From: Candidatus Latescibacterota bacterium
Lineage (GTDB): Bacteria > JAAXHH01
DNA length: 64,000 bases
Direction of reading: 5' to 3'
Assembly (NCBI GenBank): GCA_022822725.1
Contig: JAJEAN010000007.1
Location: forward strand, 1,747,045-1,811,044
Part shown: piece after piece, positions 5,187-51,540 of the stretch
Numbering within the stretch: the stretch's first letter is position 1
Layout of the letters: every line of letters starts with the position of its first letter
Notes under the pieces: generated by a model
The model's input: only the letters and a program-made list of their open reading frames with translations
What the model was told of the DNA's origin: nothing
Database searches by the model: none
Made by a program: the position numbers and the translations under genes

Positions 5187-7208
5187 ATGAAGAAAATCGA
5201 CAAGGCGGCGTACCAGGAGCGTCTGGACCGCATCACGGCCATCTTCAAGGACATGATGGTCCACGCGACCGAACAGGCTAAGTACCGCTGCCCCTACAAG
5301 AACCGCTTAGACGAATGTACTGCCCGGTTCGGGTGCCGCAATCAGCGCAAGCCGCGGGAAACCGGCGGGTTGCTCATGTGCGGCGGGGACGACAAGCTCG
5401 ACTACCGCATGGCCTGGGAGACGGAGGAGTCGCCCCGCGAACGGCCGGCCCAAGGGTCGACGGATGCACGGACGGACCGTGGATCGACGGATGCACGGTC
5501 GGGCGGCGGGTCGAAAAACACCCGGTCAGACGGCGGATCAAAGGATTCCCGTCTGGACGGCGGGTCGAAAAAGACCCGGCCGACCGGCGGAACGATAACC
5601 GACGGCACCACGACCCGGCCCCTGACTGTCGGCCGGACCCTCTTCGATTACGCCGACGATCTCGCCGTCCAGGTGCCCACCTCCTGCTTCCGCAACGGCA
5701 TCTGCCACGAGTGCATCGTTGAAGTACAGGACGGCATGGAAGGACTCGTCCCGCGGACGGAAGCGGAATCCTTCCTGCGGGAGAACTATCGTCTCGCCTG
5801 CCAGGCGCGGGTCGTCGACGCGGACGTGGATATCGCTTTCTCCCCCCTGCGGCGGACGCCCAAGATCCTGACCGTTACCGAAGAAAAGGAATCGCGGCTC
5901 GATCCCGTGGTCACCCGGCAGGGCGACGTCGTGTGCTATGACGGCGAGGAGATCGACCAGTACCGGGGGCATCTTTACGGGCTCGCCATCGATCTCGGCA
6001 CGACCACGGTGGTCATGGACTTCGTAGATCTCGAGACCGGCCGGAGCGTCCACCTGTGTTCCTTCGAGAACCCCCAGCGCTTCGGCGGCAGCGACGTGAT
6101 GCACCGGATCTCCTACGACGGCGCCTTCGAGGACGAACTCTGGAACGCCATCATCAACGCCGTCAACCACGAGATCATGGACTGGTGCGAGCGCACGGGA
6201 ACGGCACGGCAGGAAATCTACGAGATCGTCGTGGCAGGCAACGCCACCATGCGTGATCTCTTCTTCCGGCTCGATGTGCAGAGCATCGGCCAGAAACCCT
6301 ATAAGTCCACGATCGAAAACGAATACCTCGCGGGTGAGCGGGCGACCACGGCGCTGACCATCGGCACCCGCCGCCTGGGGCTGCGGGCCAATCCGAAGGC
6401 CCGGGTCTATGGAATGCCCCTCATCGCCAGCCACGTGGGCGGCGACGTGACGGCCGACCTGGCTACCGTTGAGATGGCCGCGCAACCGGGCGTGTCCATG
6501 CTGGTGGACGTGGGCACCAACACCGAGGTGGTCGTGGCGGGCAACGGGCGCATGATCACGGCTTCGTGCCCCGCCGGACCCGCCTTCGAAGGCGGCGGCA
6601 TCAAGTACGGCATGCCGGGTTACGAAGGCGCCATCGAATCGCTGAAGTGGGCGGATGGGCGGTTCGCCTGGAGCACCATCGGCGATACCGCGCCCCAGGG
6701 CATCTGTGGTTCCGGCCTGATCGACCTCCTCGCCGAATTGCACCGCCACGGTATGATGACCCCCAAGGGCGTGTTTTCCGACCGGAAACAGTTCGAAGTG
6801 GCCGTCGTGCCCGAGTCCGGCATCACCCTTTCACGGCAGGATGCCAGCAACCTGGCCCAGGCCAAGGCCGCCAACTACTGCGGGCAGTACATCGTGCTGC
6901 GTACGTTCGGCGTCGCGCCCGGCGACGTGGACCGCCTCTTCCTGGCCGGGGGGTTCGCCAACTACGTAGACGTGCACAACGCCATCGACATCGGGTTCCT
7001 TGCCCCCGTGCCCGAGGACCGCATCGTCAAGGTGGGCAACGCCGCCGTCCAGGGCGCCCGGGAGATCCTCCTGTCCCGCTCTCGACGCACGGAGCTGGAG
7101 GCGCTGGTCAAGGACATCGAGCACATCGAGCTCGAGACCACCACCGACTTCTTCGAGGTCTTCGTCGAGGCCTGCCAGTTCAAGCCCATGCCCGGGGTGT
7201 TGGTGTAG
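5187..7208 (+). CDS. Reductive activator of corrinoid protein (RACE, 2Fe-2S plus ASKHA)
   Basis: The ATG at 5187 (MKKIDKAAYQ) gives 673 residues; upstream codons in this frame lie in the tandem repeat and were rejected. An N-terminal Cys-bearing segment (CPYKNRLDECTARFGCRN) is followed by a plant-type 2Fe-2S domain with Cys167, Cys173, Cys176 and Cys205. Next is a linker, then a DUF4445/ASKHA ATPase domain from about residue 265 (GLAIDLGTTTVVMDF), with MLVDVGTNTE and GICGSGLIDL. RACE proteins use ATP and low-potential electrons to reduce inactive Co(II) to Co(I) in corrinoid methyltransferase systems. Residues 90-134 are five 9-residue Gly-Ser-Thr/Lys units encoded by a 27-bp repeat, an unusual insert between the two N-terminal Cys regions. 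Confidence 0.92.
   Translation: MKKIDKAAYQERLDRITAIFKDMMVHATEQAKYRCPYKNRLDECTARFGCRNQRKPRETGGLLMCGGDDKLDYRMAWETEESPRERPAQGSTDARTDRGSTDARSGGGSKNTRSDGGSKDSRLDGGSKKTRPTGGTITDGTTTRPLTVGRTLFDYADDLAVQVPTSCFRNGICHECIVEVQDGMEGLVPRTEAESFLRENYRLACQARVVDADVDIAFSPLRRTPKILTVTEEKESRLDPVVTRQGDVVCYDGEEIDQYRGHLYGLAIDLGTTTVVMDFVDLETGRSVHLCSFENPQRFGGSDVMHRISYDGAFEDELWNAIINAVNHEIMDWCERTGTARQEIYEIVVAGNATMRDLFFRLDVQSIGQKPYKSTIENEYLAGERATTALTIGTRRLGLRANPKARVYGMPLIASHVGGDVTADLATVEMAAQPGVSMLVDVGTNTEVVVAGNGRMITASCPAGPAFEGGGIKYGMPGYEGAIESLKWADGRFAWSTIGDTAPQGICGSGLIDLLAELHRHGMMTPKGVFSDRKQFEVAVVPESGITLSRQDASNLAQAKAANYCGQYIVLRTFGVAPGDVDRLFLAGGFANYVDVHNAIDIGFLAPVPEDRIVKVGNAAVQGAREILLSRSRRTELEALVKDIEHIELETTTDFFEVFVEACQFKPMPGVLV
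5454..5588 (+). repeat. In-frame 27-bp repeat, five units
   Basis: Five consecutive 27-bp units encode GSTDARTDR, GSTDARSGG, GSKNTRSDG, GSKDSRLDG and GSKKTRPTG within the corrinoid activator. The reading frame is kept in all units, so the repeat expands a linker without breaking the enzyme. Confidence 0.9.
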
Positions 7209-7336
7209 GTAGGAATAAACTAGGTAAGGAGGTAATCTAGTGCCCGCTTAACCTGGCGAGGATTGACCTCAGCTATATACCTATCTTTGGAGTCGCGAAT
7301 AACCAACTCTAGCCCAGATTGTATGAGGATTCAACC

Positions 7337-8260
7337 ATGGATTGTGTTTTGTGTCTACCGGGATCCGACTCTAATTCGGGAGATCCTATTGATGAGAGCA
7401 TCTACACAAAATATAAGAGAGCGAGCGATGTATTGTTGCATTGTTTATTCATAGAAATTAAGTACGACATCCTTACGTCTAACTATCTTGATCTAGAAAA
7501 ACAGATCCTTTACGAAACTGAATCAAGAATGGTACGAGGATATGATGGTTATCCCGCTACGAGAGCACTGACTATAGCGTTAAACAAGTGTATTCTTAAC
7601 CTTTTAACATCAGCACGCATGTATACAGATCAGATTGTTGGCCACGTTAGGCGTTGTTTGCCGGACCAATCGAATAAACGTAATTGTATTAAAAAACTCA
7701 TTTGCGATAAACGCACGAATAGCTGGGATTTTAGGTTTTTGGAGCTACTCAGAAACTACGCACAACACAGCGGTCTTTCGGTACATTGGACAAGCTATCG
7801 AATGAAAGCAAAAGAAACCAACGAACGAATGCTGTCAGAATGCACTTTAGATTACGCAGTTGAACCCAAATGGTTTGATGAGGATACAGTAAATAAACTC
7901 CGCATGGATCGTAATGGACTATCGATCATTGCTTCAGATAGAATACATTTAAAACAACCGATTAGACGATATATGGATTCGCTCCGTGATATTCACACAC
8001 ATGTACGTGAACTTATTGAAGATAACGTTAACGAATCACGCTGTCTGATTCAAAGCACCCTTAGCAATTACACGATTAAATGGAATCGTGAAATTTCATG
8101 TTTAGAAGCACGCAAAATCAATGATACTGGGTCTGAATTAGAAAAAGCACTGCTTATGCTTGACTGGGACTGCGAACGTATCAAGCTTCAAAAACGGAAC
8201 TCAAGCAGTAAAAGACTTGAGCGCGGTTATGTAACAAACAGCTCATCAGACAGTGATTAA
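7337..8260 (+). CDS. Unknown AT-rich protein with HEPN-like R-x4-H motif
   Basis: From the ATG at 7337, which has GAGGA about eight bases before it, the product is 307 residues. A TTG six codons upstream is possible but less likely. It is largely helical with no signal peptide or membrane segment. The segment FLELLRNYAQHSGLSVH (134-150) contains R139-NYAQ-H144, matching the R-x4-6-H signature of HEPN RNases and the RNY-QH-GL pattern I recall from uncharacterised HEPN-like proteins. Cys3/Cys6 form a CxxC near the N-terminus. Codon use and base composition are strongly AT-rich compared with every neighbour, which points to recent transfer. A stand-alone defence or stress RNase is a reasonable guess, but no partner nucleotidyltransferase or antitoxin is adjacent. 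Confidence 0.7.
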   Translation: MDCVLCLPGSDSNSGDPIDESIYTKYKRASDVLLHCLFIEIKYDILTSNYLDLEKQILYETESRMVRGYDGYPATRALTIALNKCILNLLTSARMYTDQIVGHVRRCLPDQSNKRNCIKKLICDKRTNSWDFRFLELLRNYAQHSGLSVHWTSYRMKAKETNERMLSECTLDYAVEPKWFDEDTVNKLRMDRNGLSIIASDRIHLKQPIRRYMDSLRDIHTHVRELIEDNVNESRCLIQSTLSNYTIKWNREISCLEARKINDTGSELEKALLMLDWDCERIKLQKRNSSSKRLERGYVTNSSSDSD

Positions 8261-8436
8261 CCTACTCATAATTGATACATTAGTTTCAAAATCATCGTCT
8301 TAGTGACACTTCAGATAACCAGTGGTATGACATCGATTTACAACCAAGAAATACCGCGCCGATGGTGATCGATATATACAAAATATGAGAATATTGGAAC
8401 TTAAGCGCATACTTAATATGCAATAAACAGTACCCC
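8261..8436. other. AT-rich gap with small palindrome
   Basis: The AT-rich composition of the upstream gene continues to about 8430 and then changes sharply at the acetyltransferase start. A palindrome GCATA-CTTAA-TATGC lies at 8407-8421, 16 bases before the acetyltransferase ATG, and could be an operator. No tRNA, inverted terminal repeats or direct repeats bounding the island were found. Confidence 0.4.
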
Positions 8437-47631: not shown

Positions 47632-48498
47632 TCAGTCCGCGTAGGCGGCCAGGCGGCTGCCGTGGCGGGTGTGGCGCAGCTTGTTGATGGCCTTCTGCTT
47701 GATCTGGCGGATCCTTTCCCGCGTCAGGCCGAATCGGACCCCGATCTCTTCCAGCGTGTACGCGCGGTCCGAGTTCAGGCCGTAGTACAGATTCAACACC
47801 TCACTCTCGCGATCGGTCAGGTTCGATACCGCACGCCTCACTTCCGTCCGCAGAAGCTCTTCCTGCAGCGCTTCGTCCGGCATCTTGCTGTCCTGGTCCC
47901 GGAGCCGGTCCATCAGGGTATAGGCATCCTGGTCGCCGACCGGCGCGTCCAGCGAAAGCGGCGTGCTTGCCCATTCCGGCAGGGCGGGATGTCGGCCCTT
48001 GCCGTAGGTCCGCTCTTCGCCCTCGTCGGCGCCATCAACGGAAGCTTCCCCGGCCTGCGCGATTTCGGCTTCACGCTTCTTGATGGAACGCTCGATCCGC
48101 CGCAGTTCCTCGATCTTGTTGACCGGTAGCCGGATCAGCCGGGCCTGTTCGGCCAGCGCGTGGAGGATCGCCTGCCGGATCCACCAGACGGCGTAGGAGA
48201 TAAACTTGAACCCCTTCTTCTCGTCGAAACGGCGCGCGGCTTTCATCAGGCCGATATTCCCCTCGCTGATCAGATCGGAAAGGGCGAGGCCCTGGTTCTG
48301 GTACTGCTTGGCGACCACGACGACGAAACGCAGGTTCGCGTGAATCATGGTCTCCAGCGCCTTCTCGTCGCCGTCCCGGATACGACGTGCCAGATCCTCC
48401 TCATCCTTGGGTGTGAGCAGTTCCGTATCGCCGATCTCTTTCAGGTATAAGTCGAGCGACTCGTCATCTCTGACCTGGACCTTCGTGGTCAGCTTCAT
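47632..48498 (-). CDS. rpoD: RpoD/SigA-family sigma factor, short FCB type
   Basis: This 288-residue sigma factor has region 1.2 (ESLDLYLKEIGDTELLTPKDEEDLARRI), 2.1-2.4 (NLRFVVVVAKQYQNQGL, RFDEKKGFKFISYAVWWIRQAI), 3 and 4.2 (YTLEEIGVRFGLTRERIRQIKQKAINKLR). It lacks region 1.1 and the long non-conserved insert, as do primary sigma factors of Bacteroidetes, Chlorobi and relatives. An acidic/Gly insert in region 3 (QAGEASVDGADEGEERTYGKGR) is unusual. It is probably the housekeeping sigma, though a group 2 paralogue cannot be excluded. GGGAGGTGAT precedes the ATG. It is divergent from hsp20 across a regulated gap. Confidence 0.9.
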   Translation of the reverse strand: MKLTTKVQVRDDESLDLYLKEIGDTELLTPKDEEDLARRIRDGDEKALETMIHANLRFVVVVAKQYQNQGLALSDLISEGNIGLMKAARRFDEKKGFKFISYAVWWIRQAILHALAEQARLIRLPVNKIEELRRIERSIKKREAEIAQAGEASVDGADEGEERTYGKGRHPALPEWASTPLSLDAPVGDQDAYTLMDRLRDQDSKMPDEALQEELLRTEVRRAVSNLTDRESEVLNLYYGLNSDRAYTLEEIGVRFGLTRERIRQIKQKAINKLRHTRHGSRLAAYAD

Positions 48499-48553
48499 AC
48501 CGTATCACCTCCCTGCCAGCCCTGTTTCACTTGTATTGTTGGCAGCCTCGATA

Positions 48554-48584
48554 TGCCATTTTGTCATGTTCTGCCAATTTGGCA
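48554..48584. promoter_or_regulatory. Tandem 13-bp palindromes between sigma factor gene and hsp20
   Basis: TGCCATTTTGTCA (48554-48566) and the perfect palindrome TGCCAATTTGGCA (48572-48584) are 18 bases apart start to start. A half-site TTGGCA lies at 48539-48544. They are 137 to 181 bases before the sigma-54 element of hsp20, the usual place for enhancer-binding protein sites, but also 56 to 86 bases before the divergent sigma-factor ATG. Confidence 0.6.
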
Positions 48585-48720
48585 TACCCGATTTGCGCTT
48601 ACATCAGATTAGTCAGATTTCACCACGCAATTCTTGCGGTTTTTTTAAACAAACTAACCGGCTCAAAACCAACGACTTACGTTGCTCCTCTTACTTTCTT
48701 TTGGATGCATCCTTCTGAAC

Positions 48721-48735
48721 TGGCACGGTCTTTGC
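48721..48735 (+). promoter_or_regulatory. Sigma-54 (-24/-12) promoter of hsp20
   Basis: TGGCACGGTCTTTGC matches the consensus TGGCACG-N4-TTGC exactly, with C at the preceding pyrimidine position and G instead of A/T after TTGC. Expected transcription start is near 48747, giving a leader of about 150 bases before the hsp20 ATG at 48898. No other such match was found by eye in the window. Confidence 0.75.
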
Positions 48736-48897
48736 GCTAACTATGTTGCAGATGACGAAACTGCCGCATCGCCCGCGTTTCTAAACTTATGTACGCTGAC
48801 GATGGCTATTCGGTTCCGAAAGTTGGCAAAGAGTTGTAAAGAGATTGCGGAGAGATTGCGAAGAGGTCAGTTGGTAACTTCAAAAAGGAGGAGTATC

Positions 48898-49320
48898 ATG
48901 AGAGCGACGACCATTTTCCCGCTGGCGAACCTGCATAATCTGCGGACCGAACTCGACGGCATGTTCCGGCCGTTCCCGCTGCGGTCCGGATTCCCGACCC
49001 GCTGGTCGCCCCGCGTGGACACCCACGAGACCGAGGACGCCTTCCTGGTCGCGATCGACCTTCCGGGCGTGTCCTCGGAGGACGTGTCGATCAACCTGGA
49101 CAAGGGCGTGCTGACCGTAAGCGGCGAGCGAAAGAGCCCCTTCGGTCTCAACGGCGACGCAGAGCGTCAGCCCCATGGAAAGTTCGAGCACGCATTTCCC
49201 GTGCCGGACGCGGTGGATACAGAATCGATCGACGCCACGTACAAGGACGGCGTCATGACACTCACGCTGCGGAAGTCGAAGGAGTCGCAGGCCAGGCAGA
49301 TTCCGATCACCGTTGCTTAA
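48898..49320 (+). CDS. Hsp20/alpha-crystallin small heat-shock protein
   Basis: The ATG at 48898, behind AAGGAGGAG, gives a 140-residue ATP-independent holdase. The alpha-crystallin domain (about 35-140) includes VDTHETEDAFLVAIDLPGVSSEDVSINLDKGVLTVSGERK and the C-terminal ATYKDGVMTLTLRKS. The C-terminal I-x-I/V motif appears as IPITV. The N-terminal arm is short (LANLHNLRTELDGMFRPF). It is followed by dnaK on the same strand and appears to have its own sigma-54 promoter. Confidence 0.95.
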   Translation: MRATTIFPLANLHNLRTELDGMFRPFPLRSGFPTRWSPRVDTHETEDAFLVAIDLPGVSSEDVSINLDKGVLTVSGERKSPFGLNGDAERQPHGKFEHAFPVPDAVDTESIDATYKDGVMTLTLRKSKESQARQIPITVA

Positions 49321-49334
49321 GATCCGGACGAGCC

Positions 49335-49438
49335 CGACCGGTCCTTCAATCGGGGGACTGGAAGGGTCCGACCGGTCTTCCAACCGGGGGACTGGACGTA
49401 CCCGACCGGTCCTCCAACCGGGGGACTGGAAGGGTCCA
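49335..49438. repeat. 34-bp tandem repeat, three copies, hairpin-forming
   Basis: Units starting CGACCGGTC lie at 49335, 49369 and 49403 between hsp20 and dnaK. Each contains CCGGT-N6-(A)CCGG-type pairing, so the transcript could form a row of small hairpins. A stronger perfect hairpin GGGGCGGG-AGCA-CCCGCCCC follows at 49458-49477 without a T tract. Confidence 0.85.

Positions 49439-49557: not shown

Positions 49558-51540
<1,983 letters not shown>

Follow-up and report, generated by a model that had tools for sequence, protein, structure and literature searches.

What switches on the small heat-shock protein gene hsp20 in this genome of Candidatus Latescibacterota, and does the sequence in front of it serve that gene alone or a larger set of genes? 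We examined the question in the 64,000-nucleotide stretch of DNA that contains the gene (the window), in the rest of the 3.80-Mb genome, and in related and unrelated genomes. The features of the window that matter here are listed by coordinates, strand and description.

47632..48498, - strand: divergent sigma-70 family gene, a neighbour of the regulon promoter (sigma-70 profile match)
48554..48566, no strand assigned: distal enhancer palindrome TGCCATTTTGTCA (from sequence; kept in 11 of 11 congeners)
48572..48584, no strand assigned: proximal enhancer palindrome TGCCAATTTGGCA (from sequence; kept in 11 of 11 congeners)
48721..48735, + strand: sigma-54 -24/-12 promoter TGGCACGGTCTTTGC, a perfect match to TGGCACG-N4-TTGC
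48747, + strand: predicted +1, placed 12 bases past the -12 C
48748..48834, + strand: strongly conserved block within the predicted 5' UTR of hsp20 (mean column identity 90% in 11 congeners)
48898..49320, + strand: hsp20, small heat-shock protein of 140 aa (Pfam HSP20, 66.5 bits)
49558..51540, + strand: dnaK (NCBIfam DnaK equivalog, 1047 bits)

The -24/-12 element at 48721, which an initial annotation of this DNA had described as near-perfect, proved to be real and in fact perfect, and the two 13-bp palindromes that it had reported upstream are present at 48554-48566 and 48572-48584. A gap of 136 bp separates the -24 element from the near palindrome, and a gap of 154 bp from the far one. With a probability of roughly 0.75, we take this region to be the promoter and enhancer of a gene that belongs to a small sigma-54 heat-shock regulon served by a looping activator, for which the likeliest candidate is a protein that we call b3.

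The first line of evidence is the distribution of the palindrome in the genome. We found that TGNCAWWWTGNCA occurs at 9 places in the 3.80 Mb, compared with 2 for a reversed-pattern control, and that all 9 sites sit at five heat-shock promoters, where a -24/-12 element follows downstream in every case. The next genes at these promoters are groESL, a second hsp20, clpB, the hsp20 of the window, and lon. GroEL, ClpB and Lon score above curated NCBIfam cut-offs; the names of groES and the second hsp20 rest on sequence similarity. The gene for sigma-54, rpoN, was found at G000:C9:778783 (176.6 bits to Sigma54_DBD and 396.3 bits to TIGR02395, both over the cut-off). The sigma-54 control through enhancer-like sites that had been suggested for this hsp20 is thus supported, and it appears to extend to groESL, clpB, lon and the second hsp20.

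The sigma-54 promoter pattern in its perfect form has six occurrences in the genome. Two of them belong to regulon members (hsp20 and groESL), two fall within or antisense to other open reading frames and were set aside, and no chaperone gene lies behind the perfect promoters without palindromes elsewhere in the genome. A scan allowing one mismatch gave no excess over its control, and we therefore relied solely on palindrome and promoter occurring together. Two perfect promoters without palindromes (L091, C4:213413, - strand, and L094, C9:1303218, + strand) stand before genes that resemble those for outer-membrane proteins.

The regulon leaves out some chaperone genes. For example, the hrcA-grpE operon (L239, G000:C4 around 231426) has no TGNCAWWWTGNCA site. 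In terms of the known HrcA/CIRCE system, HrcA is encoded here, followed by grpE, and a search allowing up to five mismatches found no CIRCE element at the promoters of the regulon loci or at the hrcA locus; a lone five-mismatch match lies inside L086. Since the paired site recurs in this genome only before the main chaperone and protease genes, the heat-shock response of this bacterium is probably run by an activator-driven sigma-54 switch, as in Bacteroidota.

In the mechanism we propose, sigma-54 RNA polymerase would wait at the -24/-12 element, while a hexameric AAA+ enhancer-binding protein would bind the tandem TGNCAWWWTGNCA palindromes, which lie 76-155 bp upstream in this genome. The bound activator would contact the polymerase through DNA looping and, when protein folding is under stress, open the promoter. 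An arrangement of this kind would drive groESL, clpB, lon, the second hsp20 and the hsp20 of the window, and possibly the dnaK gene behind it, with b3 as the putative cognate activator responding to a putative signal that we consider below.

When the upstream sequences of congeners are aligned, the two palindromes with their spacing, and likewise the promoter, stand out in 11 of 11 species as conserved islands amid drifting sequence; the palindromes are kept upstream of the orthologous hsp20 genes in every case, and the promoter reads TGGCACG(G/C)TCTTTGC in all 11. The tandem pattern is found in 12 of the 12 genus genomes, compared with 3 of the 372 other genomes searched. Across five operons in the genus, the distances between the near palindrome and the -24 element take 16 distinct gene-spacing values, including 87, 96, 108, 119 and 149 for clpB and 21, 86, 96, 107, 109, 127 and 160 for lon. 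The strongest period in these spacings is 10.5 bp (R 0.68, Rayleigh p ~6e-4), where the p value is a guide, because the pattern was seen before testing and the values are only partly independent. Eight spacings from outside the genus have no such period (R 0.26, p 0.58). The significance that helical spacing had seemed to have there was gone once the promoter call at one locus (L105) was corrected, and we therefore restrict the claim to the genus.

The tandem pattern is not confined to this lineage. In a species-level genome collection we found it at a minimum of 80 loci (at least 80). Among the matches listed, 24 of 80 loci lie within 700 bp of hsp20, groES/groEL, clpB or lon, and 21 of these 24 come from beyond the genus: from Bacteroidota, Planctomycetota, Zixibacteria and a small number of other groups. 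Many of the loci have good -24/-12 elements, such as TGGCACGTTGGTTGC in a Prevotellaceae genome. Among loci from Bacilli, Aquificota and Oxalobacteraceae, a gene for an enhancer-binding protein adjoins the tandem site at L127, L176 and L124, and the neighbours at L140, L150 and L170 resemble a respiratory operon. Some tandem sites serve other genes, and the motif alone is therefore no proof of heat-shock control.

The genome encodes only three enhancer-binding proteins, each scoring more than 229 bits to PF00158. One of them, b1, is a response regulator adjoining its own histidine kinase. The other two are encoded side by side: the gene for b3, a receiver-AAA+-Fis-type-HTH protein (G000:C9:1568668-1570263), directly follows that of its paralogue b2 and is itself closely followed by ftsY. 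The receiver domain of b3 scores 61.5 bits, and a kinase gene is absent beside it. No target gene was found near the b3 gene and no enhancer site in front of it, so its link to the regulon rests on homology and on resemblance of the DNA-binding helix.

Five Bacteroidota genomes, four of Bacteroidales type (G059, G066, G068 and G071) and one from Flavobacteriaceae (G064), each encode exactly one enhancer-binding protein, with the next hits below 37 bits and compatible with AAA+ ATPases of the Clp and other types, and all five carry tandem sites before hsp20 or groES. Because sigma-54 promoters need an enhancer-binding protein, the sole one must serve those promoters, provided that the bins are complete. 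From the AAA+ domain to the C-terminus, b3 is 38-43% identical to this sole-activator family (the G068 protein was left out of the alignment), with which it has in common the linker and a helix-turn-helix reading ELGIS-x-R-x-x-YR. A tree of 42 proteins gives support of 93/80 to the fork uniting the Bacteroidota and b3 clades and of 83/94 to the wider group, a grouping that is supportive and not independent, since the sequences were partly picked by similarity to a b3 profile. The group also takes in proteins from other genomes (G022, G024, two planctomycete genomes); b1 is placed in another part of the tree, and b2 comes out nearby with weak placement. In three planctomycete genomes with the sites (G076, G080 and G081), the best hits examined fall outside the b3 group.

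The helix resemblance comes from other bacteria, in which activators encoded beside tandem sites have a common helix, LGI-x-x-R-x-LYRK, from which b1 and b2 depart. On these comparisons of protein sequence, b3 is the best activator candidate for the regulon. No sensory domain was found in the Bacteroidota protein that we tested, unlike b3 with its receiver. One possibility is that the heat signal would arrive as feedback from free chaperone, by analogy with sigma-32 or HrcA. In place of the usual GAFTGA loop, b2 has GAFTNA (L090:4989-6647) and b3 has GAFTDA (6669-8264).

We weighed several other readings of the same evidence. The regulon may be real but served by b1 or b2, alone or in a mixed hexamer with b3. 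We consider this rather unlikely, although b1 forms a complete two-component pair with its kinase, and b2 adjoins b3, is conserved alongside it in the genus, and has a helix (IGQRTLFRKIK) close to the b3 type. The helix of b1, VTVRTIQYKIK, differs from those of the site-linked activators, and only the b3 family matches the sole activator of several site-carrying Bacteroidota genomes. It is very improbable, in our judgement, that a different dimeric regulator, be it repressor or activator, with no relation to sigma-54 occupies the palindromes, the -24/-12 element being incidental or secondary. An inverted repeat does fit a dimeric repressor, and at the clpB locus of Anaeroplasma (L147) tandem sites are present but no -24/-12 element could be recognised. 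However, all five promoters of this genome combine the two elements at enhancer-like distances, the spacings at clpB and lon shift by whole helical turns among congeners, and the palindrome adjoins activator genes in other bacteria. Still more remote is the idea that the palindromes are extra sigma-54 contact sites that hold polymerase. It draws on the half-site TGGCA, which is the core of the -24 box, and on three Bacteroidales groES loci (L105, L137 and L149) in which the -24 box coincides with the right half-site of the proximal palindrome. The palindromes of the window, by contrast, lack a -12 partner at the correct spacing and have two-fold symmetry around an AT centre, and in this genome such sites are arranged in tandem upstream of the promoter, at the distances given above.

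A different suggestion concerns the gene on the other side. The initial annotation had called the divergent gene the primary sigma factor and proposed that one regulator might link it to hsp20. The first of these claims is doubtful: its score against the RpoD model NF004208 is 255.5 bits, compared with 313.9 and 306.3 bits for two other genes, and its region 3 is weak. The genome has three sigma-70 genes with region 3, of which two scored as RpoD-like, and these scores make it improbable that the divergent gene encodes the primary sigma factor. As for the link, 56 bp separate the sigma start codon from the point where the distal palindrome begins, and congeners as well as two other genera of the family preserve the divergent orientation, as might be expected if the sites also controlled the sigma gene and tied the regulon to another sigma factor. 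We found no -24/-12 element on the strand of the sigma gene, nor was a promoter identified on it, and we saw no sigma gene at any of the other four enhancer pairs; such dual control therefore seems unlikely.

Returning to the sigma-54 regulon with b3 as its probable activator, parts of it have precedents. In Flavobacterium psychrophilum, sigma-54 starts have been mapped before groESL, lon, dnaK, grpE-dnaJ, htpG and clpB, and three PF00158 proteins were reported with the activator left unassigned (PMC9723704). Chaperone genes, small heat-shock genes included, have been predicted to be enriched under sigma-54 in Bacteroidota and Planctomycetota (PMC12316311). Sigma-54 control of heat shock is accordingly not unprecedented. 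The stress activator that the initial annotation had suggested is supported, with b3, one of the three enhancer-binding proteins, as its candidate. Within the open-access literature, the sections consulted of PMC9723704 and PMC12316311 contain neither a description of the palindrome nor an assignment of the activator, and the main text of PMC12316311 has no mention of Candidatus Latescibacterota or Gemmatimonadetes. What appears to be new is the enhancer, its reach across phyla, the candidate activator and this lineage; what was known is sigma-54 control of chaperone genes.

The regulon described here resembles the Bacteroidota type (PMC9723704) in having groESL, lon and clpB among its targets, and b3 has its homologues in the Bacteroidota activator family. 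It differs in including two hsp20 genes and in having grpE behind hrcA without a site. The near site is 76-136 bp from the promoter in this genome, compared with mostly 11-45 bp in the Bacteroidota loci that were read. In Myxococcus xanthus, the HsfB-HsfA system acts on lonD, HsfA being an NtrC-like activator (cited in PMC9109919). An NtrC-like activator for a heat-shock protease gene is also what we propose, but HsfA works with the hybrid kinase HsfB from the same operon, whereas b3 is encoded between b2 and ftsY with no kinase gene next to it, and the predicted targets of b3 are the main chaperone genes. In Escherichia coli, the small heat-shock gene ibpB has a sigma-54 promoter added to the sigma-32 control of that one gene. 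It is like the present case in joining a small heat-shock gene to a sigma-54 promoter, and differs in having no dedicated regulon.

We tentatively suggest, at somewhat less than even odds, that tandem TGNCAWWWTGNCA sites and a b3-type activator constitute an ancient form of sigma-54 heat-shock control found in Bacteroidota, a Latescibacterota-like lineage, Planctomycetota and Zixibacteria. If so, this would be a further main mode of heat-shock control beside sigma-32, HrcA/CIRCE and HspR/CtsR. Heat shock in abundant gut and environmental bacteria would then depend on positive control by an ATP-driven activator, and neither on a repressor nor on a heat-shock sigma factor. Given the enhancer sequence and a conserved protein of the b3 type, the question of which activator governs heat shock in Bacteroidota and their relatives becomes directly answerable.

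The predicted transcript and its surroundings offer a few further observations. The start codon of hsp20 is the ATG at 48898, and the N-terminus is kept in congeners; from a +1 at about 48747, the predicted 5' UTR is about 150 nt long. An RNA thermometer was considered there and dropped, the conserved block having no covarying pairs in the alignment of 11 congeners. Between the divergent genes, a terminator-like hairpin with a T run (48626-48648, + strand) is within the chance expectation of the scan. The dnaK gene starts 237 bp 3' of hsp20 and is possibly co-transcribed with it. Three direct repeats with a 34-bp period lie between the two genes, at 49326-49437.
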